A stretch of DNA of 64,000 nucleotides from Rhododendron vialii (taxonomy: Eukaryota > Streptophyta > Magnoliopsida > Ericales > Ericaceae): contig NC_080558.1 in assembly GCF_030253575.1 (NCBI RefSeq), positions 9,946,001 through 10,010,000 on the forward strand. The letters run 5' to 3'. Below the pieces are notes generated by a model. That model did no database searches, had not been told where the DNA came from, and saw only the letters and a program-made list of their open reading frames with translations. The translations under genes and the position numbers were made by a program. Below, in pieces: positions 1,351 through 54,856 of the stretch. The number at the start of each line of letters is the position of its first letter. The first letter of the stretch is position 1.

Positions 1351-3732
1351 CTAGTATCCTGATGAGGATATAGCACTCCATGGTGGAACCAAATCTGAAA
1401 TAAGATATTTCTGTCTACCGATTATGAACTCGCTTTCGCCAGAAATGATGTCATTGTAGGATCTAGGGCCGTCGGCCATATGTAACTCATCACCCATCTC
1501 GATGGAATTTTCCCAAGCCTCTTGCATTTTCAATGAACATTGAAGGCTGTCTAACACATCTTTCATAGAAGGGCGTCGGATCCCCTCATAAGGCAGGCAG
1601 CTTAGAGCTAGATTGACATAGTGCCTAAAACATTCAGGAGCGATTTTTCCGATAAGGTATGGATCAATCACCTCATCGATAGTTCCTATTCCGACGCATA
1701 CGCGGAACCAATCAACTAACCAAATCTCATTCCACCAAAGCTCATTCTTGTTTTGGTTGGAAGAAAAAGGGGTCTTAGCACATAATACTTCCAACAACAC
1801 GATGCCGAAAGCAAACACGTCAGTTTTCTTTGTCACTTTAGAAGTGCGCAGGTACTCAGGATCCAAATATGCATATGTGCCACACACAGCTGTTTCCACA
1901 CCCTTAGTTGCCTTGCTATTGTGAATCGGTAAGGACATTTCAAAAGCGGCAATTTTCGCGACCCATTCATTGTCCAAAAAAACGTTTGATGATGTTATGT
2001 CACGGTGGACGAATTGTTGCTCTTTGTTTGTATGGAGGTATTGGAGACCTTGTGCAATGCCGATGCAAATCTCAAGCCGCTTTTTCCAATGAAGTGGATC
2101 GTTATGGGTTTCGTGGAGACGACTTTCCAATGTCCCATTTACCATGTAATCGTACACGAGGATTAACTCATGCTTCTCTTTACAAAATCCCATCAAAGAG
2201 ACTATGTTAGCGTGACGAGGAAGTGATTGTACCCCAATCTCGGCACTAACTAGTCTGGCCGAGTGTGCCTCTCTCGCTTCGTACCGTTTGATCATAACTG
2301 CACGAGTTCCCCCCGCCATACATCCCTTGTATGACCTAAACCAACTATATCGGCCGATCAAAAGACCGTCATTGAAATCATTTGTGGCAGCCTGAATCTC
2401 CGGAAGTGAGAAACGGTGGTATACCGATTGGGTAAGGACATCTAAAATTGGTACTCCACCATTGTTTAAACCGTTGCTCTCCCCTGCTCTCAACCAACGA
2501 TTCATACCCATACCCATAGGCACAAGCTTTATGCCCTGAAACGCCTTTGCAATACTTCCCTGCGATCTTCCCTTACGCTCATGCAATACCAATGCAATCT
2601 CAAGGCTCTTCGCTACTTCAGACATTGTAGGCCTTTTCTTTGGTTCAGTATTTAAACAATTGTTCGCAAGTTTTGCAAAGTACTTAAGACTATGTGGTGT
2701 TGTTTCTCCATTAAGAGAGGGATCGATGATTCGGTCAAGCTTTCCCTTTTCGATGTACATTTTTGCCCAATTAATTAGACTAATTTGTTCCTCCTCGAGT
2801 CTATCATCTAACGGTGGCCGACCACACAAGACTTCCAACAACACGACTCCGAAGGCATACACATCAGATTTCCTAGTTACTTGACCAGTGATGAAATATT
2901 CTGGATCCCAATATCCTCTTGTTGCTTTTACTTTTGTGCTAACATGGGTTGTTGCTTGGCTTGTAATGAGTTTACATATCCCAAAATCAGAAATCTTTGC
3001 TACCAAATTCTCGTCCAACAAAATATTTGTGGTCTTCACATCTCGGTGTATGATACGTTGTTCGGTACCAGTATGAAGATAGTCGAGTCCTCGTGCAGCA
3101 CCAAAGCAAATGTTGAGCCTTTGAGCCCATGTTAGATGAGATATACTTTTACTACTTTCTTTTCTACTGGATTTGTAAAGATGATTGGCGAGATTTCCAA
3201 GTGCTATATATTCGTAAACAAGAATCATCTCATGATTTTCGTTGCAATAACCGATGAGCGAAACAAGATTAAAATGATGGAACTTTGAAAGCAATTTTAC
3301 CTCTGTCCAAAATTCTTCAGCTCCTTGGTTGGACTCGGCATTCAACCGCTTTATGGCAACAACGGTAGTTGAGGCACCATTACTGATGAACCCTTTATAT
3401 ACCTTACCGAATCCCCCAATCCCGATAACCAATGCATCGTCAAAAATGTTAGTAGCTACTTGTACCTCATCCAGTGTAAAGCGACGACAAGATCCCTCTG
3501 ACTGAATCACACCACCAACGATTCGATTCTGACTCTTTGAAATGGGCAACCGGTAGGACGAGGCTCCAGGTAGAGCAGGGTCCGAAGAGGGTAAGACGTC
3601 GGAAACCTTCGTCTCATTCCTAGAAAGACTATTTCCGTTACTCAAATCCGTACCACTAGTGACATTGGTGGCAAGGCATACTGGTTGACTAACTTGCCCT
3701 TCTTCGAAATTCTGGCTGTCTAAAGATGACAT
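1351..3732 (-). CDS. Tandem kinase gene 1 (kinase-pseudokinase, CrRLK1L-like), intact
   Basis: This is an intronless 793-residue protein. The start is chosen because the N-terminus (MSSLDSQNFEE) matches intact gene 4. No signal peptide or membrane segment is visible, so it is probably cytoplasmic. Kinase 1 (about 90-385) has the loop GIGGFGKVYKG at 104-114, the VAIK lysine K128, Glu144, HRD at 229-231, DFG at 249-251 and DVYAFG near 290, so it looks catalytically competent. Kinase 2 (about 441-740) keeps the VMIK lysine K482 and an HRD (576-578). Its glycine loop is degenerate (GRYSWFRSYKG), the lysine after HRD is Thr580, and DFG is replaced by AFE (596-598), so it is a pseudokinase. A tail of about 55 residues follows, ending SSSGY. 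Sequence style (RFSLxEIxAATNDF, YLDPEY) points to the FERONIA/CrRLK1L kinase clade. The role is unknown; immune signalling is inference from the architecture. Confidence 0.93.
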   Translation of the reverse strand: MSSLDSQNFEEGQVSQPVCLATNVTSGTDLSNGNSLSRNETKVSDVLPSSDPALPGASSYRLPISKSQNRIVGGVIQSEGSCRRFTLDEVQVATNIFDDALVIGIGGFGKVYKGFISNGASTTVVAIKRLNAESNQGAEEFWTEVKLLSKFHHFNLVSLIGYCNENHEMILVYEYIALGNLANHLYKSSRKESSKSISHLTWAQRLNICFGAARGLDYLHTGTEQRIIHRDVKTTNILLDENLVAKISDFGICKLITSQATTHVSTKVKATRGYWDPEYFITGQVTRKSDVYAFGVVLLEVLCGRPPLDDRLEEEQISLINWAKMYIEKGKLDRIIDPSLNGETTPHSLKYFAKLANNCLNTEPKKRPTMSEVAKSLEIALVLHERKGRSQGSIAKAFQGIKLVPMGMGMNRWLRAGESNGLNNGGVPILDVLTQSVYHRFSLPEIQAATNDFNDGLLIGRYSWFRSYKGCMAGGTRAVMIKRYEAREAHSARLVSAEIGVQSLPRHANIVSLMGFCKEKHELILVYDYMVNGTLESRLHETHNDPLHWKKRLEICIGIAQGLQYLHTNKEQQFVHRDITSSNVFLDNEWVAKIAAFEMSLPIHNSKATKGVETAVCGTYAYLDPEYLRTSKVTKKTDVFAFGIVLLEVLCAKTPFSSNQNKNELWWNEIWLVDWFRVCVGIGTIDEVIDPYLIGKIAPECFRHYVNLALSCLPYEGIRRPSMKDVLDSLQCSLKMQEAWENSIEMGDELHMADGPRSYNDIISGESEFIIGRQKYLISDLVPPWSAISSSGY

Positions 3733-3925
3733 ATTTCGTAGAATCTCTAAGGAACACTGGCAGCAACTTTAAGAATGGGGAATTTGGAGATCGAGTTCAC
3801 CGGTGATGGAGGAGAGAGAGGAAAGTGGATGAGAGAAGCAATTGGTAGTGTTTGAAGCCGCCTTTGAGGAATTGTTTAGGAAAACGGTGATCTTATGGAA
3901 AAGTCTACGATACACATATTTTAAA
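3733..3925 (-). promoter_or_regulatory. 5' leader and proximal promoter of tandem kinase gene 1
   Basis: This stretch is homologous to 51715-51900 upstream of gene 4, including 'aagaatggggaatt' and a GA-rich run. An A/T-rich 'tttaaaatatgt' word on the minus strand near 3915 could serve as a TATA element. Homology to the gene 4 flank stops near 3900, where a repeat element begins. Confidence 0.5.
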
Positions 3926-4160
3926 TGGGTATACCATATGCACCTATTTTATGGTTCATTCATAACATTCTAGTATGTTTCGTAACTTTTGTTCTAGAAT
4001 TTATAACCTTTCAGCAGTACGATTCGTAACATTTTCATTATGATTCATAACATTTTGGTGTATCTCATAACCTTTATACGATTCGTAATTTTTTAACAAT
4101 ACGATTCATAACATTTTTTCTATAATTCATACATTTTGGGGGTGCATATGATACACACCT
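3925..4160. repeat. Short tandem array with inverted ends just upstream of gene 1
   Basis: About eight imperfect copies of a 20-25 base unit of the form 'gattcataacattttt' or 'gattcgtaac' lie between two inverted words, 'accatatgcacc' at the left and 'gggtgcatatg' at the right. It looks like a small transposable element with internal tandem repeats. It begins only about 190 bases upstream of the start codon of gene 1. Confidence 0.6.
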
Positions 4161-4309
4161 AAATAAGGGGTGTTTATTGTAATCTTTCCCCTTAAATTTT
4201 TTTGAACAAGTCTTATTAAAGAAAACAAGTCTAATAAAGAAGGGTAAAGAAGCGGATCAAAAAAAAAAAAGAAGGGTAAAGAATCTTGCTGCTGACACAG
4301 CAAGTCTGT

Positions 4310-4640
4310 GCACAGATTGCGTTGTGGGGCCCACTAAAGATCCCATACAAATAATCCGATCTGTTAATTATGTTTAAAACATTTTTTCAAGGGCCTCCGC
4401 CAAAAATTAGCTCAATCCGATACCTATAAATGCTTTATCTAATCATCTAACTCTTCATTCAGGTTTTTAGAGAATGAAAAGTTAGTCGATTAGATCAAAT
4501 ACTTATAGGTATTGGATTGAGCTGATTTTTTTTTAGGGAGCCCTTGAGAAAATATTTTAAACATAATGAATGGCTCGAATCACTTGTGTGAGACCCGTGA
4601 TAGGCCCTACATAGCAATCTTTGCAAAGATTTACTCTGTC
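4310..4640. mobile_element. Foldback MITE with arms of about 130 bases
   Basis: The left arm (about 4310-4450) and the right arm (about 4490-4640) are imperfect inverted copies. Both contain 'tttaaaaYatttt', 'agctcaatcc' and 'atacctata' in opposite orientation. The exact ends and target duplication are unclear. A relative lies at 9561-9884. Confidence 0.75.
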
Positions 4641-5175: not shown

Positions 5176-5279
5176 ATTTTAAATATTTTTTAATTTTTTT
5201 TTGGGTAGAGGCCCGGTTTGATTTGACTTGGTTTTAAAATTCATAATACTCTGAAATGTCTTGATCATTATTCCCTCTG

Positions 5280-6987: not shown

Positions 6988-7487
6988 AATTCATCAATAA
7001 GCTGTGTATCTCGATTAATAAGTTTAGAAGATCAATTTATAGACCGGAGATAATTTTGAAGTCTTTTAAACAAGATAAACCTACAGATGTCTCTTGTTCT
7101 ATATATTTTCTCTCAAGTCCAAGGAGTTGGACTAGACTCTAGATGATATAATCACAGTTAATCGACGAAAAGGAAAAAAAAAAAAGTCGAATTTACCCTG
7201 TAAGATTAATTCCGGAAGTTGATTAACGATTTTAAAAGGCAAACCCAGTGCACGAGACTCTCGTCATTACAGACTCTTCGCGACTCGGACCCAGAGAGAG
7301 AGAGGAGGGAAATCGGTGAAATGAGACGAGGAGGACCAGATGCAACGTGCTCAAAAGAAGGTTATTCAATGACTCGAACCTGCAACTCCAGAAACGTTAA
7401 TGGCAAGCAGGTCTTGTGCAAAATTCTCCATCTCTAAAGCTGAAATGGTGTGTAGACTTTTTCATAAACACTGGACAATGGGGGAGG

Positions 7488-8131
7488 TGATTACACCATA
7501 TTTTACCGCCTGTCGATGATCGACCAAAAGGTGACAATAATGAGAATGTTTTCTATTTTATTATTTCGTATTAATAATATAACTAGTTTTTATTCGTTTC
7601 TTTGTTTGTATTTTGATGGAGTGTAGGACACTTGGCATGCTCCTACACATTTAGAAGTTAAAAGGACACTTGTCATCGTCCTACACACTTTGAAGTTGAA
7701 GGGAAGTTATTTGGATACTTGGAAGCAAATTAGAAGAATGAAGAGTAGTGGAAAGTGAAGAAGTTATTTCCTACACATCTTTGTTTTCCTATAAATAGCC
7801 TTTTTAGGCCTCATTGTAAGACCCTCAATCAATCGCCCAAAGGCTTCTACTTTTATCTGTATTTTACATTTCTTGCTTTAGGAGTAGCTTGTAACGTAAT
7901 TGTCTGTTCGATTGTGTTCTCATCGTCGATCGACTTTTATCCCGAAGAATAATAAAGTCCATTTTGTTGTTCTTCTTTCATCTCTATTCACTTCATTAAG
8001 TTTGCTTCTAGAGAAGTCCTGAAATACGGCAAGGAACCAAACTCCACCATCATAAACACCCACATTCCAGCATACACGCATAACAACCCTTAGTCAATTC
8101 GTCGACTATAAGCGAGAAAATAGACAAACAG
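7488..8131. mobile_element. Solo LTR of an LTR retrotransposon (644 bp)
   Basis: The element starts TGATTACACC and ends AGACAAACA, so it has TG...CA termini. It is flanked by a perfect 5-bp target duplication, GGAGG, at 7483-7487 and 8132-8136. The paralogous segment at 48.2 kb lacks the insertion, which confirms both borders. Inside, 'cctataaatag' near 7790 looks like a TATA box and 'gaataataaag' near 7950 like a polyadenylation signal. There is no primer-binding site or internal domain, so this is a solo LTR, direction plus by the TATA box. Confidence 0.88.
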
Positions 8132-8429
8132 GAGGGATGAGTGATATTGATGAAACCCCGTTGATGATACTATTTGACTGCCGAAGAGTACTCTAGTAAA
8201 ACAAGACAGGGGGTTTGGTCGTCTCAAGTGGTTTCCAATTTGTGGTCTGCAGCAGCTTTAACTAGTATATGATAACATAACCACTTGAGGAGAAAGAACG
8301 TTCACAAGTTGGAGTATGCCCATCTTAAGTTGGAGTGTGCCCACCTCAATTTTTGTTTTTGTTTTAGTAGGAGTAACTTTTAGTGTGTCATGGAGAGCAA
8401 ATTTCTAAGTCGGGTTGGGAAGTGGGATT

Positions 8430-8640
8430 GGGACGGGCTGTAGTGCGGTTGCCGCACTACACCGTGTAGTGTGGTCAATCCGACTGTCCATGTCGGTATA
8501 GACGGCTCGGATTTAATCCGAGCTCCAAGTAATCCGAGCCGTCGATTGTTCGGATTCCAATCCGAGCCGTCCATTGCCGAGATGGATGGCCAGATTAGAC
8601 ACACTACACGTGTAGTGCGGGAGGTGCACTACAGCATCCC
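8430..8640. mobile_element. MITE with terminal inverted repeats of about 43 bases
   Basis: The left end GGGACGGGCTGTAGTGCGG and the right end (other strand) GGGATGCTGTAGTGCACC are followed by CGCACTACAC and GTGTAGTGTG in both arms. The interior carries repeated 'atccgagccgtc' words. No clear target duplication is visible. Confidence 0.78.
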
Positions 8641-9139
8641 CGGATCCATCAGCTTGACACGATAAACATGCAACTGTTTCTTGCTCTAGTCATTTTCATG
8701 TTTAATTCTATGTTTATAATTTGCTTGCTAGTTGTTACTGAGTGTTTAGACTAAATGAATTTACTCCTTTGTAAGATAATGATTAAACCCTTTAGTGAAC
8801 TTTTCTAGCATTTGCTTTTTAAATTTGTTTCTTTGAGGGAAATTAAAAATATTTAAAAAAGTATGGATTAGAATTGAAAAACAAAGAATAAAGCAACAAA
8901 TATGATTTTAATACTGTATGTTGTGAACTTTTGTTTGCTCATAGGAGTACTTATCATTTTTCACTTTTAAAAAAGTCCCCCAGTCAAGAGTAATTGAACA
9001 AAAAAGAAGAGAAAAGTGATCGAAAGGATAAGATTTGAGAGAAGGAGAGAACTTGCGGTTGATTTTGACACACTTTGACTAATTGGCTACCTATGAGAAT
9101 GATTGAGAGAGTACAGATCTGATTTTGTTGACTCTTACC

Positions 9140-9380: not shown

Positions 9381-9560
9381 ATATTTATTTTATATAAAAA
9401 AAAGTAAGGTTATTGGCTTGAGAAAAAGTTTTACAGTCGAATTTAAAATTGGGTTGGTCAGGGTTCGGCACGGGCGGAGTTTCGGATAACCGATCCCAAT
9501 TTAAAAATGTTCTCTTAAGATTACGAGTACTACCATGTGTACAAATGCAGTGTACATATC

Positions 9561-9884
9561 ATGTACATATGAATATTGTAGGGCACATTCCGTATTTCAG
9601 AAAGATGATTCGAACCGTCTACTATTTTTAAAACATTTTTTTATGAAATCCTATAAAAAATCAGCTCAACCCGATATAGGTAGGGATTTTAATTTTCTAA
9701 ATTTGTAGAGGCAAAACTGAACAGTTAAGTAGTTTCGCCCCCACACATTCAGAAAAATTCTAACCGATATCAAGTTGAGTTGATTTTTTTACGTGACTCC
9801 ATAAAAAAATATTTTAAAAATAATGGGCTATTCAAATCATTTTTGTCGGATCTGAGATGGACCCCACAAAATTCATATGTACAT
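9561..9884. mobile_element. Foldback MITE related to 4310-4640
   Basis: The ends ATGTACATATGAATaTTGT and its inverted partner (ATTCATATGTACAT at 9871-9884) match. The arms also share 'aaaatcagctcaac' and 'tatttttaaaacattttttt' in opposite orientation. Confidence 0.75.
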
Positions 9885-9949
9885 AGTATGTAAAAGCTCA
9901 TATGTGCCCATGACTTTTCCATAAAATTACTACATTACTGTACATTCAT

Positions 9950-10262: not shown

Positions 10263-10270
10263 AAAATAGG

Positions 10271-23284: not shown

Positions 23285-24266
23285 CTCTCTCCATTCTAAA
23301 TTGAGAGTCCATTATTTCATTCCAAAATGAAGGCCCTTTTTCCAAAAATGAAAGGAAAAATTGGTGATTTTCCAAAAGTGTCCCTCAAAGGTGAATATAA
23401 GTGTTATTAAGTAGAGTTTTTTTTTTTTTTATCCACTAAACTATGTACATTTTCTCTACTTAGTCGCTAAATTATTGATTTGATGATTTCATCTCCTTAA
23501 CTATCATACCATAACCTACTTAGTCCAATAGATAATGAAAATTAGAGATTTGGCTGGAAAATGTCACGTAAGGCCCTATTTGGGACCCTATAAAGCAAAT
23601 ACTTGATTACGAGAGCCTTAGAGATAAAAATTAATTATGACCCTTTAGTGTAAAATGATCAGAAAAATAAGACATTCGTATCGGTTCAAATAGATAGAAG
23701 AATGGAGCACTTAATTTTTTTTACAAAGTTCATATATTAGAATCTTACGTGGCATTTTATAGAGACCAACACATACATTTTTTTTTTAAAAGACTGAGTT
23801 ATTTATATATAATTTAGACTTTTTATATATAAAAAATATGGTTAAAAATTAAGCGCTTTAATTTTCAATCCGTGTGAACCGGTGTGAAGATCTTGTTCTT
23901 CTGATCATTTTATCCTAAAGGGTCATAATTAATTTTTATCTCTAAAACTCTCATAATTAAGTATCTGCTTTACAATGTCTCAAACATGCCTTACATGGTA
24001 TTTTCCGTCAAAATTCCTAACTTCCGTTATCTATTGGACTAAGTAGGTAATGGTATGATAGTTGAAGTGATGAAATTGTCAAATTGATAGTTTAGGGACT
24101 AAGTAGAAAAAAGGTGCATAGTTTGGGGGACAAAAAAAAAACTCTATAAAGTAGGAAGAATATATGGGTAATAGTGGAAATAATAGGCATTGTAGGTATA
24201 ATCATTGCATGTCTCCTTAAATAGTTAAAATCCCCAAAAGGGACTCTCAATTTGGAATGGAAGGAG
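23285..24266. mobile_element. Stowaway-type element carrying a nested long inverted repeat
   Basis: The outer ends CTCTCTCCATTCTAAATTGA and, inverted, CTCCTTCCATTCCAAATTGA are flanked by TA at 23283-23284 and 24267-24268, typical of Tc1/mariner MITEs. Inside, two arms of about 270 bases (near 23418-23700 and 23880-24142) pair with each other. Examples are 'ctacttagtccaatagataa' and 'aaattaattatgaccctt' in both orientations. The inner element is therefore a second insertion. Confidence 0.85.
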
Positions 24267-29076: not shown

Positions 29077-29291
29077 CTCCCTCCGTCCCAAATTCTTTGT
29101 CTGATCCGCAAAATGGAGTGTTAAAAATAATACAATTTTTGCAAGAAAAAATCAAAAGTTTTTCAACAACTTACTAGATATCAATGAGTATTTTTAATTT
29201 GTGAAAAAAGTTTGAATTTTTTCTTAAAAAAATTGCATTATTTTTAACACTCCGTTTTGCGGACCGGACAAAGAATTTGAGAATGAGGGAG
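29077..29291. mobile_element. Stowaway MITE (215 bp)
   Basis: The terminal inverted repeat begins CTCCCTCCGTCCCAAATTCT on the left and CTCCCTCATTCTCAAATTCT on the right (inverted). The arms pair over about 60 bases. TA flanks both ends (29075-29076 and 29292-29293). This is the classic Tc1/mariner-derived Stowaway plan. Confidence 0.95.
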
Positions 29292-29660
29292 TATGATTTT
29301 AGGAAGATGTACAACTTTTTCCTATTTCATTGGAGGAAATGACTCTGTTTGTACTTGCCAAAAAAAATAATAGTGACTCCGTTTAGGCGTTTATGGTTGA
29401 AATTCAAATAATTGAGGTGAGATTTTTTGTGCATTGTTAAGATCTTTTAAATACGATCCTACACGAACACATGCTTATATGGGCTGGAATGGAAGAATGT
29501 AATTTTGGTAGAATGGATTATTGTTTGAACTAGTTTAAGTTAGTTTGTAGAGTCAGTCTACAGGTTGAGTTTCTCATTTTAATTAGTTCCATCAAAATCA
29601 TGATGTATTCTTCACTTAATTGCTTTATGTCCTTTAAAACTAATGGTTATTTGAATATGT
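29292..29660. other. Non-coding interval
   Basis: AT-rich sequence without a recognisable feature. Confidence 0.5.
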
Positions 29661-32300: not shown

Positions 32301-32439
32301 AACAAACCTATTCCATTAGGAACTGCAGATTTTTTGGTCCATCACATTAAAGATAATACAGGAGACCAATAAAAAAATTCTACTGGCAAGGCTTATTTTT
32401 TTAGTAACTTGAAGTGCCAAAGCGTGCGTACTGTCCCCC

Positions 32440-32712
32440 TCTTAAAAAATAATCGCAAAAATCCAAACATTTATCTATCCAGCCATGAGGTAGATCCGCA
32501 ACTATTCCTTCAATACAAAAATAATTATGCATCATTCGCATACCAGTGGCAACTTTGAATAAATCATATATCAATTCTCTTTCACAAAAAATATAGAAGA
32601 AGAGAGTTTGCGTACCAATATCTGCCATAAAAGGTCCAAGCCATAATAAATGAGAAGCTATACAACTCAATTCTAAGATAATTACTCTGATATAGCTCGC
32701 CCGTTTAGTTAT
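32440..32712 (-). pseudogene. ndhH: Nuclear plastid DNA fragment: ndhH piece
   Basis: The minus strand reads [20 protein letters not shown], then [27 protein letters not shown] and [18 protein letters not shown]. This is the central part of the plastid NAD(P)H dehydrogenase subunit H. Several substitutions suggest an old transfer. It lies in the same intron as the rps15 piece but in the opposite orientation. The two genes are neighbours in plastid genomes. Confidence 0.92.
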
Positions 32713-32809
32713 TTGAAGTTGTATAGGTACCAAAGACATGAAAGAATTATGGGAACAGATAGATACAGATGGGGATGGTGTGATTGATATATCAGACTTT
32801 TCTGTATGT

Positions 32810-34035
32810 CCATCGCCCTTTTGTTATTTCCTACTCTGTTGTTTTTCTTCTTCAACTTATTTCTTGATGCCTTATGGTCCATTTGATTAGCAAGAAAATG
32901 AGAGAATGGGATGGAAAGAGACAAATATATCTACTTCTGATGTGTTTGAATTAGGAAGAGAATGAGAGAGAGTGCAAGAAACTAAACTTTCCTGTACAAC
33001 TTATGCATCTGGATTTTTTTTTCTTTGCATAAAACACCGGAAACTTTAAACCTTCTCGTGGAATTAGTCACCAACAATTTGTATTTCAAACTTTGTCTCT
33101 TTCAATAACTTGCTCCCTTGTCTCATACTAGTGGGTGTTAATTAATTAGATTGGGTCACAATAATGTGATGGTCAACAGAGAATTTTTGGTTTACTTTTT
33201 CAGTATGTTAATTTCTAGTGTGATAAGATGCCCCGTTGATGCCTTAGGTGTTTGAGTTTTGAGTGTCCATGTGTTCAATTCGGAAAAAGTTTATAGCTGC
33301 ACCATGACAAGGAAAATATACATGCACAATCCAGCAAAAAATGGCTAAAAGACTTACTGACCCGGAGGAAGATTGGATGATTCAATTAACTTGCTAAGTA
33401 GCTTGGTAGATTTGGTGGCTCCTATATAGGGTATGATAGTTTTTGCTTATGAAGTGTAGTGTCACTGATTTTGTTTTACTTTCGGTTGTATATGCCAAGG
33501 CCATCTCCTTCGTTTGCTTGTTCTTTTTTTGAGCTATAAAGAAGTGCATGCAGTACTCATCGAAAACAACAAAACCTTCAGAGTTATTTCTTTCTTAATT
33601 GAGTCCATCGAAAAAAAATGCTTTTTTTGTGTTTGTTTCTTAACCTTAGGCAATGACCAATACCCCAGTTGGTCTCCCGAGAGTTTCATTTTTTTCTTAC
33701 CTGATATGTGTTTGTCCATGTCCCATATATATTCTCAGCCCCTATTGCTCAGTGCTCATAGGTTGGAAATTAGAAGTTCAACTTTCTTTTTTGCCCATAA
33801 ATTTAGTTCTTTCTGAGAAGTGCCATTCATGTGTGATCCAGTTAAGGAAATTCTAGCAGAGCTGTTTTCTAGCTGCATTATCCGTGTTATAAGCTAAAAC
33901 CATGTTGTAGATTGCGTGGCTCTAACGTTAGGGTTATTTCTTTCTTAATTGAGTCCATACCCATAAGATGGACTCAATTAGCTTTTTATGCATTAAGAGG
34001 CACAAAATGTTAAGATAATTTTTTGTTTTGGCTTG
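32810..34035. other. Non-coding interval
   Basis: The word 'ttatttctttcttaattgag' occurs twice (near 33583 and 33934). No gene is seen. Confidence 0.5.
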
Positions 34036-38017: not shown

Positions 38018-40892
38018 ATGTCTGAATCACCTGACGGTTCGAGTGCTCAGTCAACAAATCCGGTTGATGGTTCTGGACCATCACAACCAAGTGGTAGCCC
38101 CGTACCATCATCATCCCTTCTTGATAACCATGCAAGTGACAATCCTACTCATCCAAGTGACAATCCTACTGATGAAGTTGAAGTTGTATCAGAAAAATCT
38201 GATGATGATGATGGTGGAAAAAGGTTAAGGAGTCCTTATTGGGCTCACTATAATAGGGTGAAAATCTTAGTTGCAGAAACCTTCAACTATGCCCATGTTT
38301 CTTCGACGGAAATGCGTTTCCGCGTTCCCGTCGAAGGAAACTCCAAGAAACTCGTCCCAATGATAACGGAAACTCGTTCCTTACCTATACGGGAACTTAC
38401 ACCCAAAAAACGGTTGAGACTTACGATTCAAGCTCCAATTGGTACATTTAAAGTTGTTTTGTTCTTGTTGGTGTGCACATCTGATATTAACCTTCTAGAG
38501 TCATACTAATGCCTTTAACTTTTAAACCTACTTAATATGCACAAGAGCTCTATTGTATAATCATGTGCTACAATAAAAATGTTGAAATATAACTAGAAAC
38601 TTATAATTTTAATAACAATATTTTATGCTTTAGAATAATATTTTTATATTGACATTTAACAATATAAAATTTCAAAATATAATTATAATTTTAATAATTT
38701 TTCCTAACCACTTCCAATGGCGCTCCCACACTTCTATGATCATCCACACCCCCGCTCCCGCTCCCGCTCCCGCTCCCGCTCCCGCTCCCGCTCCTGCTTC
38801 GTGTAACTAAGGTGAAAATTAGCGGGGTTTACAAGGCCATTTGCAAGTATTGCGGAACAAAATTTCTGGAGAAACAAGGAATGGAACTTCGCATTTGAAC
38901 GAATACTATTTAAGGAAACACCAAAAGAAGGATAACATGAGACAACAAGTTCTAACAAACAATTTCATGAACAAAGACCGTCCTCCGCTACTAACTTCAT
39001 ATAGTTTTGATCATGAGACGGCACGGAAAGAACTTGCAAGTGCCATAATCATGCATGAGTATCCCCTTTCAATTGTGGACCATGTTGGATTTAGGAGGTA
39101 TTCAAATGCTCTTCAACCTTTATTTAAGGTGCCGTGTAGGAACACAATGAAAGCTGAAATATTTAAGATTTATGAGTACCGGAAGGGGAAGACAATGAGT
39201 TTGGTGGTGAGTAATGCAAGTAGATTAGCGATCACAACAAACATGTGGACTTCGAGTAATCAAAAGAAAGGCTTCATGACTGTCACAGCACACTTTATTG
39301 ATGATTCTTGGACTTTGCAAAGTCGCATTTTGAGGTATTTCTAACTTATATCGCTATATTTATTCCTTTATGCTATGTAAATCTTCATTTTTCCATTTTT
39401 AACTAAATATCAACGTTGCATATTAGGTTCATATATGTGCCATATCCACATACAAAAGAAGTTCTATGTGACCAATTGTTGAATTGTTTGATAGATTGGA
39501 ACATTGATAGAAAGATTTCAAGTATAACGGTTGATAATTGCTCTACCAATGATGCCATGATTGATCTTTTGTGGGACAAACTTTATAGTACGTCACTCAT
39601 GTTAGGTGGGAATTTGTTTCATATGCGTTGTTGTGCGCACATTCTTAATCTTATTGTTAAAGATGGGTTGGATGTTATCAAGGTGGGTACTAAGAAAATT
39701 CGGGATGACGTAGCTTATTGGACAGCATCACAAAAAAGAGAGGAAAAATTTGAAGAAACAGTCCGCCAATTGAATGTGACTAGTACTAAGAAATTAGGAC
39801 TTGATTGTGCGACTAGGTGGAATTCAACATTCTTGATGCTTCAAACAGCCCTACTTTATAAGGATGTGTTCATTCGCTTAAGCAAACGGGATGCTCAATA
39901 TAATTCCTTATTGAGTGAACGTGAATGGGGGTTTGCTAGAGATGTTTGTCAAAAGTTGAAATTTTTTTTTAAGGTGACAGAGTTGTTTTCTGGAACTAAA
40001 TACTCTACTACTAATCAATGCTTTCCAAATATACTTGAGATTAGACTTGAATTGAGAGATTGGCTCCGTTCTGAGAATTAGATGATTAGGGAAATGACCA
40101 AAAGAATGGTGGAAAAATTTGATAAGTATTGGTCTATGGTACATGGTGTTGTGGGGGTTTCTATTGTGTTGGATCCTAGGTATAAGATAAACGTGTTGGA
40201 GTTCTACTTTAAATTATTGTTTCCAACAACTTACAAGGAAGAAGTTGAGAAAGTTCATGCACTTTGTTATAAATTGCTTAAGGAGTATCAATGTCCTAGT
40301 TCAATGATGGAGAGTATTCGTGACTCTTCTTTCCAATCAAGTTCCATTGATGAAGATTCACTATCGAAGTATGATGTCTACATGCTTCGGGAGTCGAAGA
40401 GAAGTAGGACAATCGATACTGCAAAATTGGAGTTGGATCATCATTTGTCGAAAGTTGTCTTGCCAAAATCAGCAGGATTTGATGTCTTGAATTAGTGGAA
40501 ATCACATCAACCCAAGTATCCAATTTTGCAAGCCATGGCTAGGTATCTGTTAGCTATTCCGGTATCGACGGTTACTTCTGAGTCAGCATTTAGCACGAGT
40601 GGTAGGTTGGTGAGTCCACGTCGCAGTAGACTTCATCCCGATACGATGGAAGCCTTGATGTGTGCTCAAAGTTGGTTGTGGGCTGCCGAAATTAAAGGTA
40701 ATGAACTTAATATCTTGCATTTTTCTACTTTAGTAAACTCAAACTAGTACTTATGAATTTTTTACTTTATATTTGTTAGGTGAATCAACATCAGGGTACG
40801 CCACTATATTAGATGATGCTGAAACGAGGGATTCGTGCATGACTCGTGAGGTAATTGGCATTTGTCTTACGTCTCTCGTGCGTGACTCGTGA
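38018..40892 (+). pseudogene. hAT transposase (BED finger, RNase H-like core, hAT dimerisation domain), broken
   Basis: The frame opens MSESPDGSSAQSTNPVDGSG with an acidic, Ser-rich N-terminus. The BED zinc finger (SPYWAHYNRVK ... CKYC ... GTSHL) is split by a MITE and also frame-shifted by one base near 38865. The core has ITVDNCSTND (catalytic Asp region), CCAHILNLIV, CATRWNSTFLML and the C-terminal dimer domain YPILQAMARYLLAIPVSTVT, ESAFSTSGRLVSPRRSRL. Introns fit GT...AG at 39335-39426 and 40698-40779. In-frame TAG codons lie at 40079-40081 and 40493-40495; the second stands where a Trp is usual (WW before KSHQPKYPIL). The protein cannot be made whole. Confidence 0.9.
38266..38811. mobile_element. 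MITE inserted in the hAT BED-finger exon (546 bp)
   Basis: The ends CTTAGTTGCA and, inverted, CTTAGTTACA match in 9 of 10 bases. An 8-bp target duplication, GTGAAAAT, lies at 38258-38265 and 38812-38819. Skipping the insert keeps the reading frame across the BED finger, which confirms both borders. A (CCCGCT)n hexamer repeat lies at 38749-38795. Confidence 0.88.
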
Positions 40893-42666: not shown

Positions 42667-44911
42667 TAAATTTGAAATAAGATAGCTCTGTCCACCGATT
42701 GTGAACTCGCTTTCGACAGAGATGACGTCGTTGTATGATTGGGGGACGTCGGCTGTATGCAACTGATCACCCATCTGGAAGGAATTTTCCCAAGCCTCTT
42801 GCATTTCCACTAAAGATAGAAGGCCACGCAACACATCGTCCATAGAAGGGCGTCGGATCCCCTCGGAAGCCAGGCAGCTTAGTGCTATATTGACATAGTG
42901 CCGAAAACATTCAGGAGCGATTTCTCCGATAAGGTATGGATCAATGACTGCATCGATTTCTGCACTTCTGATGCACATGTAGAACCAATCAAGTAACGAA
43001 GCATTGTACGGCCATTCTCGGGAAGAAGGGGTCCTAGCACACAATACTTCCAACAACACAAGACCAAAAGCATACACGCCAGTTTTTTCTGTCACTTTAA
43101 AATTGTACTGGTACTCAGGGTCCAAAAATTCCTTTGTGCCAAAAAATCCCATCATGCCAATAATATTTGTTTCCACACCTTCGGTTGCCATGCGAGTGGG
43201 TATACGTACGAAAAAATCAAAAGTGGCAAGTTTTGCGACATATTTATCATCAAAAAGTACGTTTGATGGGTTTAGGTCACAAAGGACAAATTGTTGCTCT
43301 TCATTCAAATGGAGGTATTCGAGAGCTTGTGCAGTGTCGATGCAAATCTCAAGCCACTTTTTCCAAAGAAGTGGATAGTTATCACTTCCGTGGAGAAGAC
43401 TTTTCAGTGTCCCGTTTCCCATGTAGTCGTACACAAGGATCGACTCATCCTTCTCTTCGCAATATCCTATCAAAGAGACTATGTTAGGGTGATGAGTCAG
43501 AGATTGTACCTCAATCTCGGCAATAACTTGTCCGACCAAGTTTGGCTCCCTCAACACGTATCGTTTGATCATAACCGCATGAGTTCCCCTCACCATACAT
43601 CCCTTGTACAAACTAAACCAAATGCCTTGGCTGATCAAAAGATCGTCATTGAAATCATTAGTGGCAGCGTGAATCTCAGCAAGCGAGAAACGGGGATTTG
43701 AACCATTCCCTGCTTTCCACCAATGATTCGGACCTTTAGGCACAAACTTTTGGCCCTGAAACGCCTTTGCAATAGTTCCCAGTGATCTTCCCCTACGCTC
43801 ATGCGATACCAATGCAATCTCAAGGCTCTTCACTACTTCAGACATTGTAGGCCTTTCCTTTGGTTTAAGTTGTAAACAATTGTTCGCAAGTTTGGCAAAG
43901 TACTTAAGACTATGTGGTGTAGTTTCTCCATTAAGAGAGGGATCGATGATTCGGTCAAGCATTCCCTTTTCGATGAACAATTTTGCCCAATTAATTAGAC
44001 TAATTTGCTCGTCCTCAAGTCTATCATCTAACGGTGGCCGACCACACAAGACTTCCAACAACACCACGCCAAAGGCATACACATCAGATTTCCTAGTTAC
44101 TTGACCAGTGATCAAATATTCTGGATCCCAATATCCTCATGTTGCTTTGACTTTTGTGCTAACATGGGTTGTTGCTTGGCTTGTAATGAGTTTACATAAA
44201 CCGAAATCAGAAACCTTTGCTGCCAATTTCTCATCCAACAAAATGTTTGTGCTCTTCACATCTCGGTGTATGATACGTTGTTCGGTACCTGTATGAAGAT
44301 AGTCGAGTCCTCGTGCAACACCAAGGCAAATTTTGAGCCTTTGAGCCCACTGTAGATGTGATATACTTCTACCGCTTTCTTCTCTACTTGATTTGTAAAG
44401 ATGACTAGCAAGAGTCCCACGAGCTATATATTCGTAAACAAGAATTAATCATCTCCTGATTCTCATTGCAAAAGCTGATGAGCGAAATGAGATTAGTATG
44501 ATGGAACTTTGAAAGCAATTTTACCTCTGACCAAAATTCTTCAGCACCTTGGTTGGACTGGGCATTCAACCTCTTTATGGCAACAACGGTGTTCGTAGCA
44601 CCATCGTTAATGAACCTCTTATATACCTTGCCGAATCCTCCAGTTCCAAGAACTAATTCATCATCAAAGTCGTTTGTCGCTATTAGTACTTCATGCAATG
44701 AAAAGCAATGACAAGATCCCTTAACTTGAATCACGCCACCGTATGTCGCTATTAGTACTTCATGCAATGAAAAGCAATGACAAGATCCCTTAACTTGAAT
44801 CACGCCACCATTGATTGGATTCTCCTTCTCAAAAGAGATCGGAGTGTTGGACGAGGCTTCTGCTTTATCAAAGTGATTTGGAGACGGCAAGGCATGCGAA
44901 ATCTCATCCAT
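42622..44911 (-). pseudogene. Tandem kinase pseudogene 3 (subfamily B), 3' end replaced by CACTA-like DNA
   Basis: The start at 44911 gives MDEISHALPSPNHFDKAEAS. An in-frame 69-base duplication (44675-44809) repeats the GSCHCFSLHEVLIAT stretch ahead of kinase 1. A 4-base insertion near 44446-44449 shifts the frame after NQEMI. A TGA at 44137-44139 replaces the Arg codon before GYWDPEY. Between these lesions kinase 1 still shows GTGGFGKVYK, VAIK, HRD and DFG, so decay looks recent. Kinase 2 (in the frame 42622-44115) is a pseudokinase with LCD for HRD, TFD for DFG and TGVYAFG. After ...YLISNL the last 14 codons come from the CACTA-like element. It is unlikely to make the full protein. Confidence 0.92.
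44675..44809. repeat. Recent tandem duplication, 66 identical bases at a 69-base period
   Basis: Units 44675-44740 and 44744-44809 are identical, separated by GTA. The duplication is in frame with pseudogene 3. Confidence 0.97.
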
Positions 44912-47150: not shown

Positions 47151-47322
47151 ATGCACATCTCAATTAATAAGTTTAGAAGTTTAATTTATAGACCAGAGAT
47201 AATTTTGAAGTCGGCTAAATAAGATAAACCTGCAGATGTTCCTTGTTTCTATATATTTTCCCGACAATTTAAATGACTAAATCTGAACCATATATGGGTG
47301 CAATTAATCGACGAAAAGAAGC

Positions 47323-47552
47323 AAAAATAGAAGTTACCTTGTAAGATTCTGGAAGTTGATCGATGAGTTTCCCTCGCTAAAAAGTCAACTTGCCGCACTC
47401 TTTTTCCGTCAATGCTTCGTTAACCTCGAGAGAGAGAGAGAGACAAAAATAGAAGTTACATTGTAAGATTCCGGAAGTTGATCGATGAGTTTCCTCCGCT
47501 AAAAAGTCAAGTTGCCTCACTCTTTTTTCGTTAATGCTTCGATAACCTCTAG

Positions 47553-47631
<79 letters not shown>

Positions 47632-47806
47632 AATGAAAAGGGGAGGACGAAATGACTAAATCTGAACCATAAATGGGTGCAATTAATCAATGAAAAGAAA
47701 CAAAAATAGAAGTTACCTTGTAAGATTCCAGAAGTTGATTGATGAGGTTCCCCTGCTAAAAAGTCAACTTGTCTCACTCTTTTTCTGTCAATACTTCGAT
47801 AACCTC

Positions 47807-47846
<40 letters not shown>

Positions 47847-48060
47847 GAAAAGGGGAGGACGAAATGACTAAATCTGAACCATATAATATATATGGGTGCA
47901 ATTAATCGACGAAACGGAACAAAAATAGAAGTTACCTTGTAAGAATCAGGAAGTTGATGATGAGTTTCCCCTGCTAAAAAGTCAACTTGCCTCACTCTTT
48001 TTCCGTCAATGCTTCGACAACCTCTATTGTAGAGAGAGAGAGAGAGATGAAATGAAAATG
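47323..48060. repeat. Array of four units, each carrying a GA microsatellite
   Basis: Units begin 'aaaaatagaagtta' near 47323, 47444, 47702 and 47921. They share 'aagttgatcgatgag', 'gctaaaaagtcaa' and 'ctctttttccgtcaatgctt', and each ends in a GA run (the longest is 47554-47629). A single diverged relative is at 7180-7310, so the array expanded only in this copy of segment B. The LSLSLS frames on the minus strand are artefacts. Confidence 0.88.
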
Positions 48061-48079
48061 GGAGGACCGAGGACCAGAT

Positions 48080-49190
48080 GCAACGTGATCAAAAGAAGGT
48101 TATTCCATGACTCGAACCTGCAACACCAGAAATGTTAATGGCAAGCAGGACTTGTGCAAAATTCTCCATCTCTAAAGCTGAAATGGTCTGTAGAATTTTT
48201 CATAAACAGTGTACAATGGGGGATAGAGAGATTGAAGTAACCGCGTTGATGATATTGCCGAAGACTTTTAAAACGGGACATGGGTTCGGTCGTCTCCAAG
48301 TGGTCTGCAGCAGCTCTCTATGAAAAAGTAGAGATTGTCTTTTTTGGGCTGTGCGGTAAACAGATTTGTTTACCGCACCAATCAATCTCAGTCGTTTATT
48401 CGCACAATTAATGGTTGAGATTCATTTTTAATTATAACTAGTCTCAATTAATTCTTTTCCGAAAAAGTTTTATTAAAATCCGAATCGTTCAAAACTCTTT
48501 TGAACGGTCATAATTTAGTGTTGTGAGCACTTGTTTACAAATTTAGTGTTGTGAGCACTTGTTTACAACACAACCGGAAACAAATTTTTTTCAAAGTAAA
48601 AGAGAAAAAGCCACTTGACCAATTGAAGAGAGAGAATGTTCACATGTTGGAGTATGCCCCATCTCAATTTTTTTTTTCCTTTTTAGTATTAACTTTCAGT
48701 GTGTCATGATAAATTATGCACATCTCGATTAAATTTTAAAATATCAATTTGTAGGCTAAACGGAACCTGAGATCTTGTAAAGAGCAAACTTCTTAAGTCA
48801 GACTTGACAAGATAAACTTGCAATTGTTTCTTGCTCCAGACATTTTCATATTGTTTATTTCTATGTTTATAATTTGCTTGCCAGTTGTTACTGAAGGGGG
48901 ATTGTTTTGACTAAATGAATTATTTTTTAAGATAATGATTAAACCGTTAGTGAACCTTTTTAGCATTTTGCCTTTTAAATTTGTCTTCACGAGAGAAATT
49001 AAAGAAATTTTAAGAATATGGATTAGAATTGAAAAACAACGGAATAAAACAACAAATAAGATTTAAAAACTGTATGTTGTGGATTATATTCAGTTTCAGT
49101 GAACTTTTGTTTGCTCATAGGACTACTTAATTTTTCAATTTTAAAAAATTCGTGGTTGATTTGACACTTTGACTAATTGGCTACCAGATT
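48080..49190. repeat. Duplicated segment B, copy 2, with an orphan kinase-gene leader
   Basis: 48090-48320 matches the leaders of pseudogenes 2 and 3 and the orphan at 7360-8330, but no kinase body follows on its left. 48790-49190 matches 8650-9130. Between them, 48337-48573 has MITE-like inverted ends (GGGCTGTGCGGTAAACA and CGGTTGTGTTGTAAACA) and a 26-base tandem repeat 'gtgttgtgagcacttgttta'. Confidence 0.82.
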
Positions 49191-49266: not shown

Positions 49267-51714
49267 TTACAACTCCCAGTAATGAACTGGTGGACGAACC
49301 AAATTTGAAATAAGATAGCTCTGTCCGCCGATTGTGAACACGCTTTCGACAGAGATGAAGCCGTTGTAGGTTTGGGGGACATCGGCCATCTGGACGGAAT
49401 TCTCCCAAGCCTCTTGCATTTGCAATGAAGATTCAAGGCCGTGCAACACATCGTTCATAGAAGGGCGTCGGATCCCCGGGCTAACCAGGCAACTCAGTGC
49501 TATATTGACATAATGCCTCAGGCATTCAGGAGCTACTTTGCCGATTAGGTATGGATCAATGACGGCATCGATAGTTCCTATTTCGATGCAAAATCGGAAC
49601 CAATCAAGTAACAAAACCTCATCCGTGTTTTGGTCTCGAAAACAAGGGGTCTTGGCACACAATACTTCCAACAACACAACTCCGAAAGCATACACATCGG
49701 TTTTCCTTGTCACTTTACCGGTGTGCACGTACTCACGGTCCAAATATCCCATCGTACCAAAATATCTCATCGTGTCAATAATATTTGTTTCCACGCCCCC
49801 GGTTGCCATCCTAGGGTGAATTGGCACGGAATGTTCAAAATTGGCAACTGCCGCAACACATTTATCATCTAGAAGTACGTTTGACGGGTTCAGGTTACAG
49901 TGGACGAATTGTTGTTGTACATTCGAATGGAGGTAATCGAGACCTCGTGCGGTGTCGATGCAAATCTCAAGCCGCTTTTTCCAAAGAAGTGGATCGTAAT
50001 CGCTATCGTGGAGATGACTTTTCAATGTCCCATTTAGCATGTAATTGTACAAGAGAATCAACTCCTGTTTTTCATTACAAAATCCTATCAAAGAGACTAT
50101 GTTAGTGTGACAGCTAAGAGATTGTACCTTAATCTCGGCACTATATTCCTTCAAGCTTTGTCTCGACGCCGATATGAACTTTTTGATCGCAACATCAAGA
50201 TTTCCCCCCACCATATATCCCTCGTACAAGCTAAAGAAACCGTATTGGCTAATCAAAAGACCCTCATTGAAATCATTTGTGGCAGCGCAAATCTCAGCAA
50301 GAGAGAAACGACGGTATACGGATTGGGTAAGGTCGCCTAAAATTGGTCCTCCACCATCATATAAATCGTTGCCCTTCCCTGCTCTCAACCAACGATTCAT
50401 ACCTTTAGGCACAAGCTTTATGCCCGCCTGAAACGGCTTTGCAGTAGTTCCAGGCGATCTTCCCTTACGCTCATGCGACACCAATGCAATCTCAAGGCTC
50501 TCCACTACTTCAGACATTGTAGGCCTTTCCTCTGGTTTAGTATGTAAACAATTGGTAGCAAGTTTTGCGAAGTACTTAAGACTATGTGGTGTTGTTTCTC
50601 CACTAAGAGAGGGATCGATGATTCGGTCAAGCATTCCCTTTTCGATGTACATTTTTGCCCAAAGAATTAGACTGTTTTGCTCCTCCCCGAGTCTATCATC
50701 TAACGGTGGCCGACCACACAAGACTTCTAACAACACCACGCCAAAGGCATACACATCAGATTTCCTGGTTACTCGACCAGTGATTAAATATTCTGGATCC
50801 CAATATCCTCGCGTTGCTATGACTTTTGTGCTAACATGGGTTGTTGTTTGGCTTGTAATGCATTTACATATCCCGAAATCAGAAACCTTTGCTACCCAAT
50901 TCTCATCCAACAAAATGTTTGTGCTCTTCACATCTCGGTGTATAATAAGTTGTTTGGTACCAGTATGAAGATAGTCGAGTGCTTGTGCGGCACCAAGGCA
51001 AATGTTGAGCCTTTGAGCCCACGTTAGATGAGATATACTTTTACCATATACTTCTCTACTTGGTTTGTAAAGATGATTGGCAAGAGTCCCACGAGCTATG
51101 TATTCGTAAACAAGAATCATCTCTTGATTCTCGTTGCCATAGCCGATGAGTGAAACGAGATTAGTATGATGGAACTTTGAAAGCAACTTTACCTCTGTCC
51201 AAAATTCTTCAGCACCTTGGTTGGACTGGGCATTCAACCTCTTTATGGCAACCATCGTAGCACCATCGTCGATGAACCCCTTATATACCTTACCGAATCC
51301 CCCGATCCCGATAACTAATGCATCATCAAAATTGTTAGTCGCTATTAGTACCTCGTCCAGTGAAAAGCAACGACAAGTGCCCTCCGATTGAATCACATCA
51401 CCGTCGATTGGATTCTGACTCTTTGAAATGGGTAACCGATTGGACGAGGCTCCGGGCAGAGCATGTTCTGGAGAGTGTAACAAGTCAAAAAACTCAGTAA
51501 CATTGGCGGCAAGCCTAACTGGCTGACTAATTTGTGTCAAGAAATCGGTGTTTTGGTTCTGATCCTTTGAAATGGGTAACCGATTGGACGAGGCTCCGGA
51601 CAGAGCATGTTCTGGAGAGGGTAACAAGTCAAAAAACTCAGTAACATTGGCGGCAAGCCCAACTGGCTGACTAATTTGGTCTTCTTCAAAATTCTGGCTC
51701 TTTAGAGATGACAT
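49267..51714 (-). CDS. Tandem kinase gene 4 (kinase-pseudokinase, CrRLK1L-like), intact
   Basis: This is an intronless 815-residue protein. The start MSSLKSQNFEE matches gene 1. No signal peptide or membrane segment is visible. Residues 14-53 are repeated in frame at 62-101 (ISQPVxLAANVTEFFDLL...). Kinase 1 (about 118-415) has GIGGFGKVYKG (136-146), K158, E174, HRD (259-261) and DFG (279-281), so it looks active. Kinase 2 (about 470-768) keeps VAIK (K511), but the glycine loop is lost (SQYGFFSLYEG), HRD is HCN (605-607), DFG is NFE (625-627) and DPEY is DREY. The conserved tail FTIGGQSYLISNLV ends the protein. The downstream flank is segment B and the upstream leader matches gene 1. Cytoplasmic location and signalling role are inferred. 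Confidence 0.93.
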   Translation of the reverse strand: MSSLKSQNFEEDQISQPVGLAANVTEFFDLLPSPEHALSGASSNRLPISKDQNQNTDFLTQISQPVRLAANVTEFFDLLHSPEHALPGASSNRLPISKSQNPIDGDVIQSEGTCRCFSLDEVLIATNNFDDALVIGIGGFGKVYKGFIDDGATMVAIKRLNAQSNQGAEEFWTEVKLLSKFHHTNLVSLIGYGNENQEMILVYEYIARGTLANHLYKPSREVYGKSISHLTWAQRLNICLGAAQALDYLHTGTKQLIIHRDVKSTNILLDENWVAKVSDFGICKCITSQTTTHVSTKVIATRGYWDPEYLITGRVTRKSDVYAFGVVLLEVLCGRPPLDDRLGEEQNSLILWAKMYIEKGMLDRIIDPSLSGETTPHSLKYFAKLATNCLHTKPEERPTMSEVVESLEIALVSHERKGRSPGTTAKPFQAGIKLVPKGMNRWLRAGKGNDLYDGGGPILGDLTQSVYRRFSLAEICAATNDFNEGLLISQYGFFSLYEGYMVGGNLDVAIKKFISASRQSLKEYSAEIKVQSLSCHTNIVSLIGFCNEKQELILLYNYMLNGTLKSHLHDSDYDPLLWKKRLEICIDTARGLDYLHSNVQQQFVHCNLNPSNVLLDDKCVAAVANFEHSVPIHPRMATGGVETNIIDTMRYFGTMGYLDREYVHTGKVTRKTDVYAFGVVLLEVLCAKTPCFRDQNTDEVLLLDWFRFCIEIGTIDAVIDPYLIGKVAPECLRHYVNIALSCLVSPGIRRPSMNDVLHGLESSLQMQEAWENSVQMADVPQTYNGFISVESVFTIGGQSYLISNLVRPPVHYWEL
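51412..51675. repeat. In-frame 144-base tandem duplication in gene 4
   Basis: The two copies (about 51532-51675 and 51412-51531) encode nearly the same 40-residue stretch at an offset of 48 residues. They differ at only a few residues. Gene 1 has a single, more diverged equivalent. Confidence 0.92.
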
Positions 51715-53260: not shown

Positions 53261-53903
53261 ACCAAAAAAAAAAAAAAACCCACAAATGACTTATATAAGT
53301 ATCAACATTCAGAAAACTCAAAAAAGCGAATCACAAATGGGGCCTTCATTGGACTGGACGAACATGTTTTGATGTACGTGATTGTTGCTGAATTTCATTA
53401 GCTCACACGACAAAGAGATAGAAGGATTTCAGAAATAATCACGCCAAATAACATGGCGTCTACCGTAGAAGCTTGATACCGCAGGCTAGTACTGTAGCTA
53501 TGATAGTTCGTCCAAAAATACTAGTTACAGACACGCAAATGCACGGGCACGCGGCACACACACTCACACCGGCCATGGGATCCACCGTGTCCGTGTGATG
53601 GGAGAAAAGAGAGTGATAACTGATTATTAATTGCCCAAGTAAAGATGGAGTAAAGATGGAGAAAGATTGAGCAAAGTAGAGATGGATAACATGGATAAGA
53701 AATTTGGGAAAGAGAATAAGAGAACTCGTGGTATATTTTAGGCCCACTGTAGTTTTGGGCTTTGTTTGGCCCTCGGGTGTCCTTGAGCTTTCATTGTATA
53801 TTCTGGGTATGGTAGATTCATAGGTGTTTGGGCTTTGTCTCAATTTGACTATATTCCGATGTTTCATTGATTCTAATTGATGCATTCACAAAAAGAATCA
53901 TAT
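53261..53903. other. Non-coding interval
   Basis: A minus-strand frame (53460-53885) has no recognisable domain and no support. Nothing else is seen. Confidence 0.45.
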
Positions 53904-54150
53904 GAACTCAAACACAAACTATTGGATAACGAGTAATTATTCAGGAGCCTGGAAGCACCACGTTTTCAAAACCACATATTTATGTAGGTTACATATAGTT
54001 GGTCGTGGATCCTATTGGAATGTGTGGTTATGGCAATGCTTCCGGAATACTGAATAATTTCACTTGAATAACGAACCCTTTTTGCTTAATCTTTGCCAGC
54101 TTGGGTCCAGTCTGTTTTCAAATTTTCAAACTTGTTTCGTCTATTAAAGA
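53904..54150. repeat. Duplicated segment D, copy 1
   Basis: It matches 63178-63415 over about 240 bases ('cagcttgggtccagtctgtt', 'aatttcactYgaataac'). It contains a palindromic pair, 'attcaggagcctggaagc' and 'gcttccggaatactgaat', which looks like an old MITE already present before the duplication. Confidence 0.85.
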
Positions 54151-54315
54151 GCATTTTACGAGCCGGTCTTATTCCCTCCGACTCCCACCCAATTTCTTAA
54201 ATATACCTCTAAGGATTCAACATACTTTTATACCAACGATACCCCTTAATCCTCCTCGGTAAGAACCTCGGCATATAGTTGTAAAAACTCAGCTAATAAG
54301 CATGAGTTCATAATC

Positions 54316-54856
54316 TCGAGTCACTTCTTCCAAAGAACAGTATCCGCATCGGTTATGTGGAGATGACTTTCCAACGTCCCATTGACTATGCACTCATACA
54401 TGAGGATCAACTCATGCTCCTCATTACAAAATCCATCAAAGAGAGTATGTTAGGAAAGCGTGCGGGTCAGAGATTGTACCCGATCGAATCTTCGTACTAA
54501 CTAGTTTGGTCAAGTTTTCTTCTCTCGATAGGTTTCGTTTGATCGCAACCACACTAGTTGCCCCCACCATACATCCCTTGTACAAACTAAACAAATTGTC
54601 TTGGCCGATCATAAAACCATCATTGAAATCGTTCGTGGCAGCACGAATCTCAGCAAGCGAGAAACAGGGGATTCCAATTGGGTAAGGTCGTCTACAATAG
54701 GTCCTCCACCGTCGTTGCAACTGTTCCAACGATTCATACTTTTATGCCCAAGTTTTATGCCCAGAAATGCCTATGCACTAGTCCTCTGCGATCTTCTCTT
54801 ACGTTCATGAGACACCAATGCAATCTCAAGGCTCCCCACTGCTTCGGTCATTGTAA
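54316..54856 (-). pseudogene. Tandem kinase remnant 5 (linker and N-lobe of kinase 2 only)
   Basis: The longest frame (54436-54729) reads CFSLAEIRAATNDFNDGFMI, GQDNLFSLYKG and VVAIKRNL, the start of the second kinase. Flanking bases continue the homology out of frame: 54316-54430 matches the middle N-lobe and 54770-54856 the end of kinase 1. Both ends are cut off. Nothing functional can be made. Confidence 0.87.

Follow-up and report, generated by a model that had tools for sequence, protein, structure and literature searches.

What do genes encode in which two kinase domains resembling those of CrRLK1L receptors follow each other in one chain, and could such proteins act in immunity? The question is raised by a 64,000-nucleotide stretch of the Rhododendron vialii genome (RefSeq assembly GCF_030253575.1, contig NC_080558.1, positions 9,946,001 to 10,010,000), called here the window, in which a first-pass annotation had described five tandem kinase-pseudokinase loci on the minus strand, two of them intact. 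According to our sequence comparisons, the two intact genes, A and B, very probably belong by architecture to the tandem kinase proteins built from CrRLK1L-1 (FERONIA/Pto-like) domains, and their products are presumably intracellular.

Searches with tblastn using both intact proteins as queries recovered five related loci, all on the minus strand, as annotated. Gene A (1351..3732; tblastn match 1354-3732) is a tandem kinase-pseudokinase open reading frame (ORF) of 793 amino acids with start and stop codons, and gene B (49267..51714; tblastn match 49270-51714) is one of 815 amino acids. In the six-frame ORF set, the corresponding stop-to-stop frames run uninterrupted over 805 codons in A and 868 codons in B and cross both kinase domains, so that these two loci are indeed intact. 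Because a single open frame covers both domains in A and in B, the sequence disfavors two separate transcripts at either locus. The two proteins share the start MSSLxSQNFEE and are 68.3% identical over the tblastn match. Pfam placed two kinase stretches in each and no additional conserved domain, its matches being to kinase-type families together with an APH match below cut-off in B. The other three loci are broken. P2 (12841..15094) and P3 (42667..44971) are pseudogenes that retain both kinase halves, as judged from six-frame ORFs, tblastn, and a motif table; P2 carries stops and a frame break, and P3 a stop in the P+1 loop of kinase 1 and a frame break near 44447. P5 (54183..54869) is a fragment made up of the tip of kinase 1, the linker, and the N-lobe of kinase 2, which matches A residues 364-592 in tblastn; in blastn, 54312-54859 aligns with 2068-2633 at 74.8% identity. 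A one-frame protein alignment of P5 contains six stops, but this alignment is partly out of frame. The order N-tail, kinase 1, linker, kinase 2, and C-tail, which had been described for all five loci, was found in four, P5 being the exception. All seven locus pieces scanned with Pfam, a set without P5 and the smaller pieces of P2 and P3, matched kinase families.

Kinase 1 of A (2572..3486), delimited by the motif table, alignment, and domain placement, carries GIGGFG (3406-3423), VVAIK (3349-3363), HRDVK (3034-3048), and SDFG (2980-2991); the glycine loop, VAIK, HRDVK, and DFG are likewise all kept in kinase 1 of B (50464..51372). Kinase 2 of A (1510..2418) keeps the VAIK lysine (as VMIK) and HRD, has lost the glycine loop, and reads AFE in place of DFG, and that of B (49402..50313) reads HCN for HRD and NFE for DFG. 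Across the four readable copies of kinase 2, a count that leaves out P5, which is without most of these parts, the glycine loop is missing and the DFG aspartate is lost in all (AFE, NFE, TFD, and TFD), and the VAIK lysine is retained in all; the HRD position is LCD in both P2 and P3. The motif table cross-matches kinases 1 and 2 in some cells of P2, P3, and P5, and the motifs of P2 and P3 were read also from the alignment. With these losses, kinase 2 is a pseudokinase as far as its motifs tell, which bears out the proposed kinase-pseudokinase architecture. In A, the linker is the gap between the placed domains (2419..2571), and the C-tail (1354..1509) aligns with that of B and has a core motif also present in P2 and P3.

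The suggestion that both halves are CrRLK1L-like is supported, FERONIA being the nearest solved structure for each. For the whole of A, the best solved-structure match was FERONIA (E 1.2e-100), with the best listed stretch in kinase 1, followed by a chain labeled only "Protein kinase" (3hgk, 2qkw). Kinase 2 of B alone also matched FERONIA best (4.8e-76) and then the same "Protein kinase" chain as A. We take the chains 3hgk and 2qkw to be Pto. This assumption fits the residue numbering in PMC3561153. In one alignment, the kinase 1 copies are 54-57% identical to the FERONIA kinase (56.3% for A) and the kinase 2 copies 40-43%, and kinases 1 and 2 are 37-43% identical to each other. In a tree with three outside kinases, all kinase 1 copies grouped together (ultrafast bootstrap 99), as did all kinase 2 copies (100) and FERONIA with Pto (99). 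Because the two halves form separate groups, these data support one already fused ancestral gene behind the cluster, with a fusion older than the cluster itself. The best tree joined kinase 2 to FERONIA/Pto (79). Kinases 1 and 2 as sisters were not rejected by the approximately unbiased (AU) test (p 0.094 for the full alignment, 0.383 for the N-lobe, and 0.088 for the C-lobe) and fell outside the confidence set only by the bootstrap proportion from resampled estimated log-likelihoods (bp-RELL; 0.028 full and 0.031 C-lobe). Kinase 2 may thus have arisen by internal duplication of kinase 1 or by fusion of another CrRLK1L kinase. Descent of the C-tail from that of FERONIA was also considered and rejected, as the similarity of TIGGQS/SIGGRS was no better than that of shuffled sequences: of 2000 shuffles, 422 reached the score for B, 538 for P3, 1486 for P2, and 1579 for A.

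The annotation had further stated that ectodomain and membrane segment are absent, and our searches of the window agree. In tblastn over the 64 kb, the best hits to the malectin ectodomains of FERONIA and ANXUR1 had E values of 1.0 and 2.2, and a two-sequence profile searched over the 2095 stop-to-stop ORFs with 20 or more amino acids gave only E 7 and 8.2; the FERONIA kinase query, which served as positive control, recovered the kinase halves with E values as low as 1.5e-105. No hidden malectin ectodomain was found within the window. The usual hydropathy mark for a membrane helix is 1.6. The top 19-residue windows reached a borderline 1.69 in A and 1.63 in B, and because they lie within the conserved core of kinase 2, we attribute them to the kinase fold interior rather than to a membrane-spanning segment.

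To compare constraint on the two halves, we used omega, the ratio of nonsynonymous to synonymous divergence. Between A and B, at an overall synonymous divergence (dS) of 0.32, omega was 0.33 for kinase 1 (bootstrap 0.21-0.52) and 0.63 for kinase 2 (bootstrap 0.47-0.89), the latter being higher with a permutation p of 0.0205. The short parts, with wide intervals, gave 0.89 (linker), 0.37 (N-tail), and 0.80 (C-tail). The same direction was seen in all six locus pairs (kinase 1 0.29-0.47 versus kinase 2 0.54-0.73), which comprise one intact-intact, four intact-pseudogene, and one pseudogene-pseudogene comparison and are not mutually independent. Judged by these ratios, kinase 2 is kept, yet is changing faster than kinase 1. 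In the segment 2557-2766 (A residues 323-392), the synonymous difference from B drops to 0.08-0.09, compared to 0.15-0.35 in other kinase 1 windows, a drop that gene conversion between the two genes may have caused.

The P+1 loop of kinase 1 was numbered on Pto, anchored on Ser198/Thr199, and compared with the three outside kinases. It reads KATRGYWDPEY in A (2896-2928) and IATRGYWDPEY in B (50788-50820). All four kinase 1 copies retain the Ser198/Thr199 sites and have Ala and Trp at positions 203 and 208, respectively. At position 205, the three readable copies have Arg, whereas in P3 the codon is a stop; the residue is Leu in Pto, Phe in FERONIA, and Ile in BAK1. In all four kinase 2 copies, Glu stands at the position of Pto Ser198. 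Kinase 1 had been called active-looking, a description that the catalytic motifs of A and B bear out, although the P+1 loop is altered. The alteration cuts both ways, since kinase 1 may be a signaling switch or may be no ordinary active kinase. It appears to be a new detail, as we found no mention of it in the parts of the literature on such proteins that are covered here.

Genes of this kind are, however, already in print, and neither the claim that no well described eudicot cluster of this type exists nor that of an undescribed family was upheld. Sunflower CrRLK1L-1 proteins encoded in a chromosome 4 cluster are described with two kinase domains, the active site and ATP site being in the left one only, and without transmembrane or extracellular domain, and two lettuce relatives also have two kinase domains (PMC8866362). 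Wild sunflower has two-domain kinases at the corresponding locus (PMC10884359), and 67 sunflower CrRLK1L-1 kinases with multiple kinase domains have been counted (PMC11646777). By description, these proteins share with A and B the tandem CrRLK1L halves, the active-looking left half (in sunflower), the lack of ectodomain and membrane segment, and the clustering; they differ in length (588-691 amino acids where given, versus 793 and 815 here), and the sunflower clusters mix one-domain and two-domain proteins. As far as these descriptions go, the present cluster is of an already described type known from sunflower. Such genes may well be listed in a 2025 survey across plants (Reveguk et al.).

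The sunflower dual kinases have been likened to Rpg1, Yr15, and Sr60 (PMC8866362). The cereal tandem kinase-pseudokinase proteins, a family named in PMC6170490, likewise hold a kinase and a pseudokinase in a single protein (WTK1/Yr15, RPG1, Sr62, and RWT4/WTK3), and the 92 proteins surveyed are without an additional conserved domain (PMC6170490); RPG1 is listed elsewhere as HMA, pseudokinase, and kinase. Their lineages are different, namely L-LPK, LRR, RLCK, RK, WAK, and soluble kinases, and the term "CrRLK" is missing from the main text of that survey (PMC6170490). In the literature covered, the tandem kinases with tested resistance functions are cereal genes, and we found no proof of resistance conferred by a CrRLK1L tandem kinase in the open-licence literature, a body that leaves most subscription journals outside. 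A cluster of FERONIA/Pto lineage, with two intact and unequally constrained genes among decayed copies, offers a compact system in which to ask whether a tandem architecture from another kinase lineage also acts as an immune receptor.

How might such a protein work? An ancestral gene with kinase 1, linker, pseudokinase, and C-tail would have duplicated several times, with two copies kept and three decayed, as in a birth-and-death cluster. Kinase 2, which lacks residues required to use Mg-ATP normally and evolves more quickly, would serve as sensor or bait, and kinase 1, the constrained half, would convert a change in kinase 2 into a phosphorylation or conformational signal. This signal would most likely be read by a nucleotide-binding leucine-rich repeat (NLR) partner encoded elsewhere in the genome, as for the wheat tandem kinases Sr62 and RWT4, which depend on a helper NLR. 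A parallel for such a read-out is tomato Pto/Prf, there with separate kinase molecules. By analogy with these systems, an immune role of A and B is plausible, and we propose tentatively, at not quite even chances, that a pseudokinase bait or sensor, a kinase 1 signaler, and an NLR act together; the cell location, immunity, NLR partner, and direction of signaling are what we infer. The annotation's reading is supported in its architecture, its CrRLK1L nature, and the lack of a detected ectodomain, and growth of the cluster from a single fused ancestor is supported as well; the novelty of the family is not.

Several points weigh against this proposal. The sunflower dual kinases lie in the broomrape-resistance candidate intervals OrDeb2/OrAnom1, but are mapping candidates and not proven resistance genes (PMC8866362, PMC10884359). 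The omega of kinase 2, being below 1, gives no sign of diversifying selection, and a kinase 2 window chosen after the fact (A residues 469-508; pN 0.40 versus pS 0.23, the nonsynonymous and synonymous differences per site) was not significant for positive selection (Fisher p 0.11 on approximate counts). Among the 20 window ORFs given to Pfam, none showed an NLR domain; 8 of 10 in the first set had matches, and 3 of 10 in the second did so at E up to 0.1, two of these above cut-off. Finally, the altered P+1 loop could mean that kinase 1 is not a normal active kinase.

That loop also provides a point test of the mechanism. In tomato, cytoplasmic effectors are sensed by sensor and helper kinase molecules (PMC3561153). 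Pto L205D is kinase-inactive, yet its signaling through Prf is constitutive as long as Ser198/Thr199 receive phosphate in trans; pairing with kinase-dead Pto (D164N) suppresses this signaling (PMC3561153). Pto/Prf differs from the present proteins in having one kinase per chain, joined via Prf, as opposed to two kinases per chain. The likeness is that Pto, if the chains are correctly identified, is the nearest solved kinase after FERONIA. On this analogy, A and B could each unite the sensor and the helper of a Pto-like pair in a single polypeptide, in which a naturally unlocked kinase 1 P+1 loop is restrained by its own dead kinase and disturbance of kinase 2 releases an NLR signal, a version that we regard as quite improbable.

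The strongest competitor to the bait-and-signaler proposal places A and B outside immune reception, as intracellular modulators of FERONIA-type growth or cell-wall signaling that would tune the receptors, or compete with them, by binding substrates or partners of CrRLK1L kinases. FERONIA and the other CrRLK1L receptors share the kinase lineage with A and B and differ in that here the kinase is doubled and no malectin ectodomain or membrane segment was found. The identities of both halves to the FERONIA kinase fit such modulators, and the best Arabidopsis matches to the sunflower genes have links to metal-ion stress, although bacterial infection and elicitors regulate them too (PMC8866362). Arabidopsis genes named in that paper are printed as At5g39000 and At5g38900. 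Since the P+1 loop of kinase 1 is unlike that of FERONIA in the substrate-docking segment, simple substrate copying is disfavored, and the decay of the cluster together with a fast kinase 2 would suit receptor-like turnover better. We hold a modulator role to be possible but unlikely.

Somewhat less likely still is a decaying cluster with little present function, in which the survival of A and B is due to chance or the two genes see only weak use. Of the five loci, three are broken, the linker omega is 0.89, and the flanks carry relics of what may be further copies, all of which this explanation would account for. It does not sit well with the full ORFs kept in A and B at the overall dS given above, with the low omega of kinase 1, or with the upper bootstrap bound of kinase 2 (0.89). 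Flanking DNA was also duplicated, with upstream blocks common to P2 and P3 as far out as ~1.4 kb and downstream DNA common to A and P2. Leader-like relics without a kinase body lie at 7370-7483 and 48108-48301, in collinear paralogous blocks (7008-8977 and 47157-49151), which suggests further lost copies.

A membrane receptor whose upstream exon, possibly from beyond the window, gives a malectin ectodomain and membrane segment is very improbable: CrRLK1L receptors normally carry both parts and the B frame is open for 53 codons upstream of its ATG, but the 64 kb holds no malectin match, A and B have the first ATG and similar leader DNA in common, and the A frame is closed 12 codons upstream.

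Two of the loci contain internal repeats. In the N-tail of B (51408..51678, minus strand), 51408-51534 and 51553-51678 are 95.3% identical, and P3 has, where its kinase 1 begins, a 70-bp tandem repeat of 98.6% identity (44671-44809). NCBIfam returned 13 families for A and 11 for B, all prokaryotic models below their own cut-offs, and in a search of prokaryote genomes a word pattern matched seven stretches, none of which was confirmed. The AlphaFold model of A had a mean predicted local distance difference test score (pLDDT) of 36.1 and a predicted template modeling score (pTM) of 0.26.

Adjoining the cluster on the minus strand, 56226-57710 is an intact ORF for a beta-1,3-glucanase-like protein, in which Pfam finds domains of glycosyl hydrolase family 17 and X8. 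On the plus strand, 40082-40492 matches a hAT-like transposase RNase-H fold in Pfam, and the ORFs 38823-39344 and 39407-40081, which have no Pfam match, look like parts of the same element. A minus-strand fragment (32404-32823) matches the 49 kDa NADH dehydrogenase family in Pfam; it presumably resembles plastid ndhH and is perhaps an organelle insertion. Five self-palindromic stretches (4294-4640, 8437-8635, 9553-9892, 23421-24141, and 29071-29297) resemble small inverted-repeat transposons.

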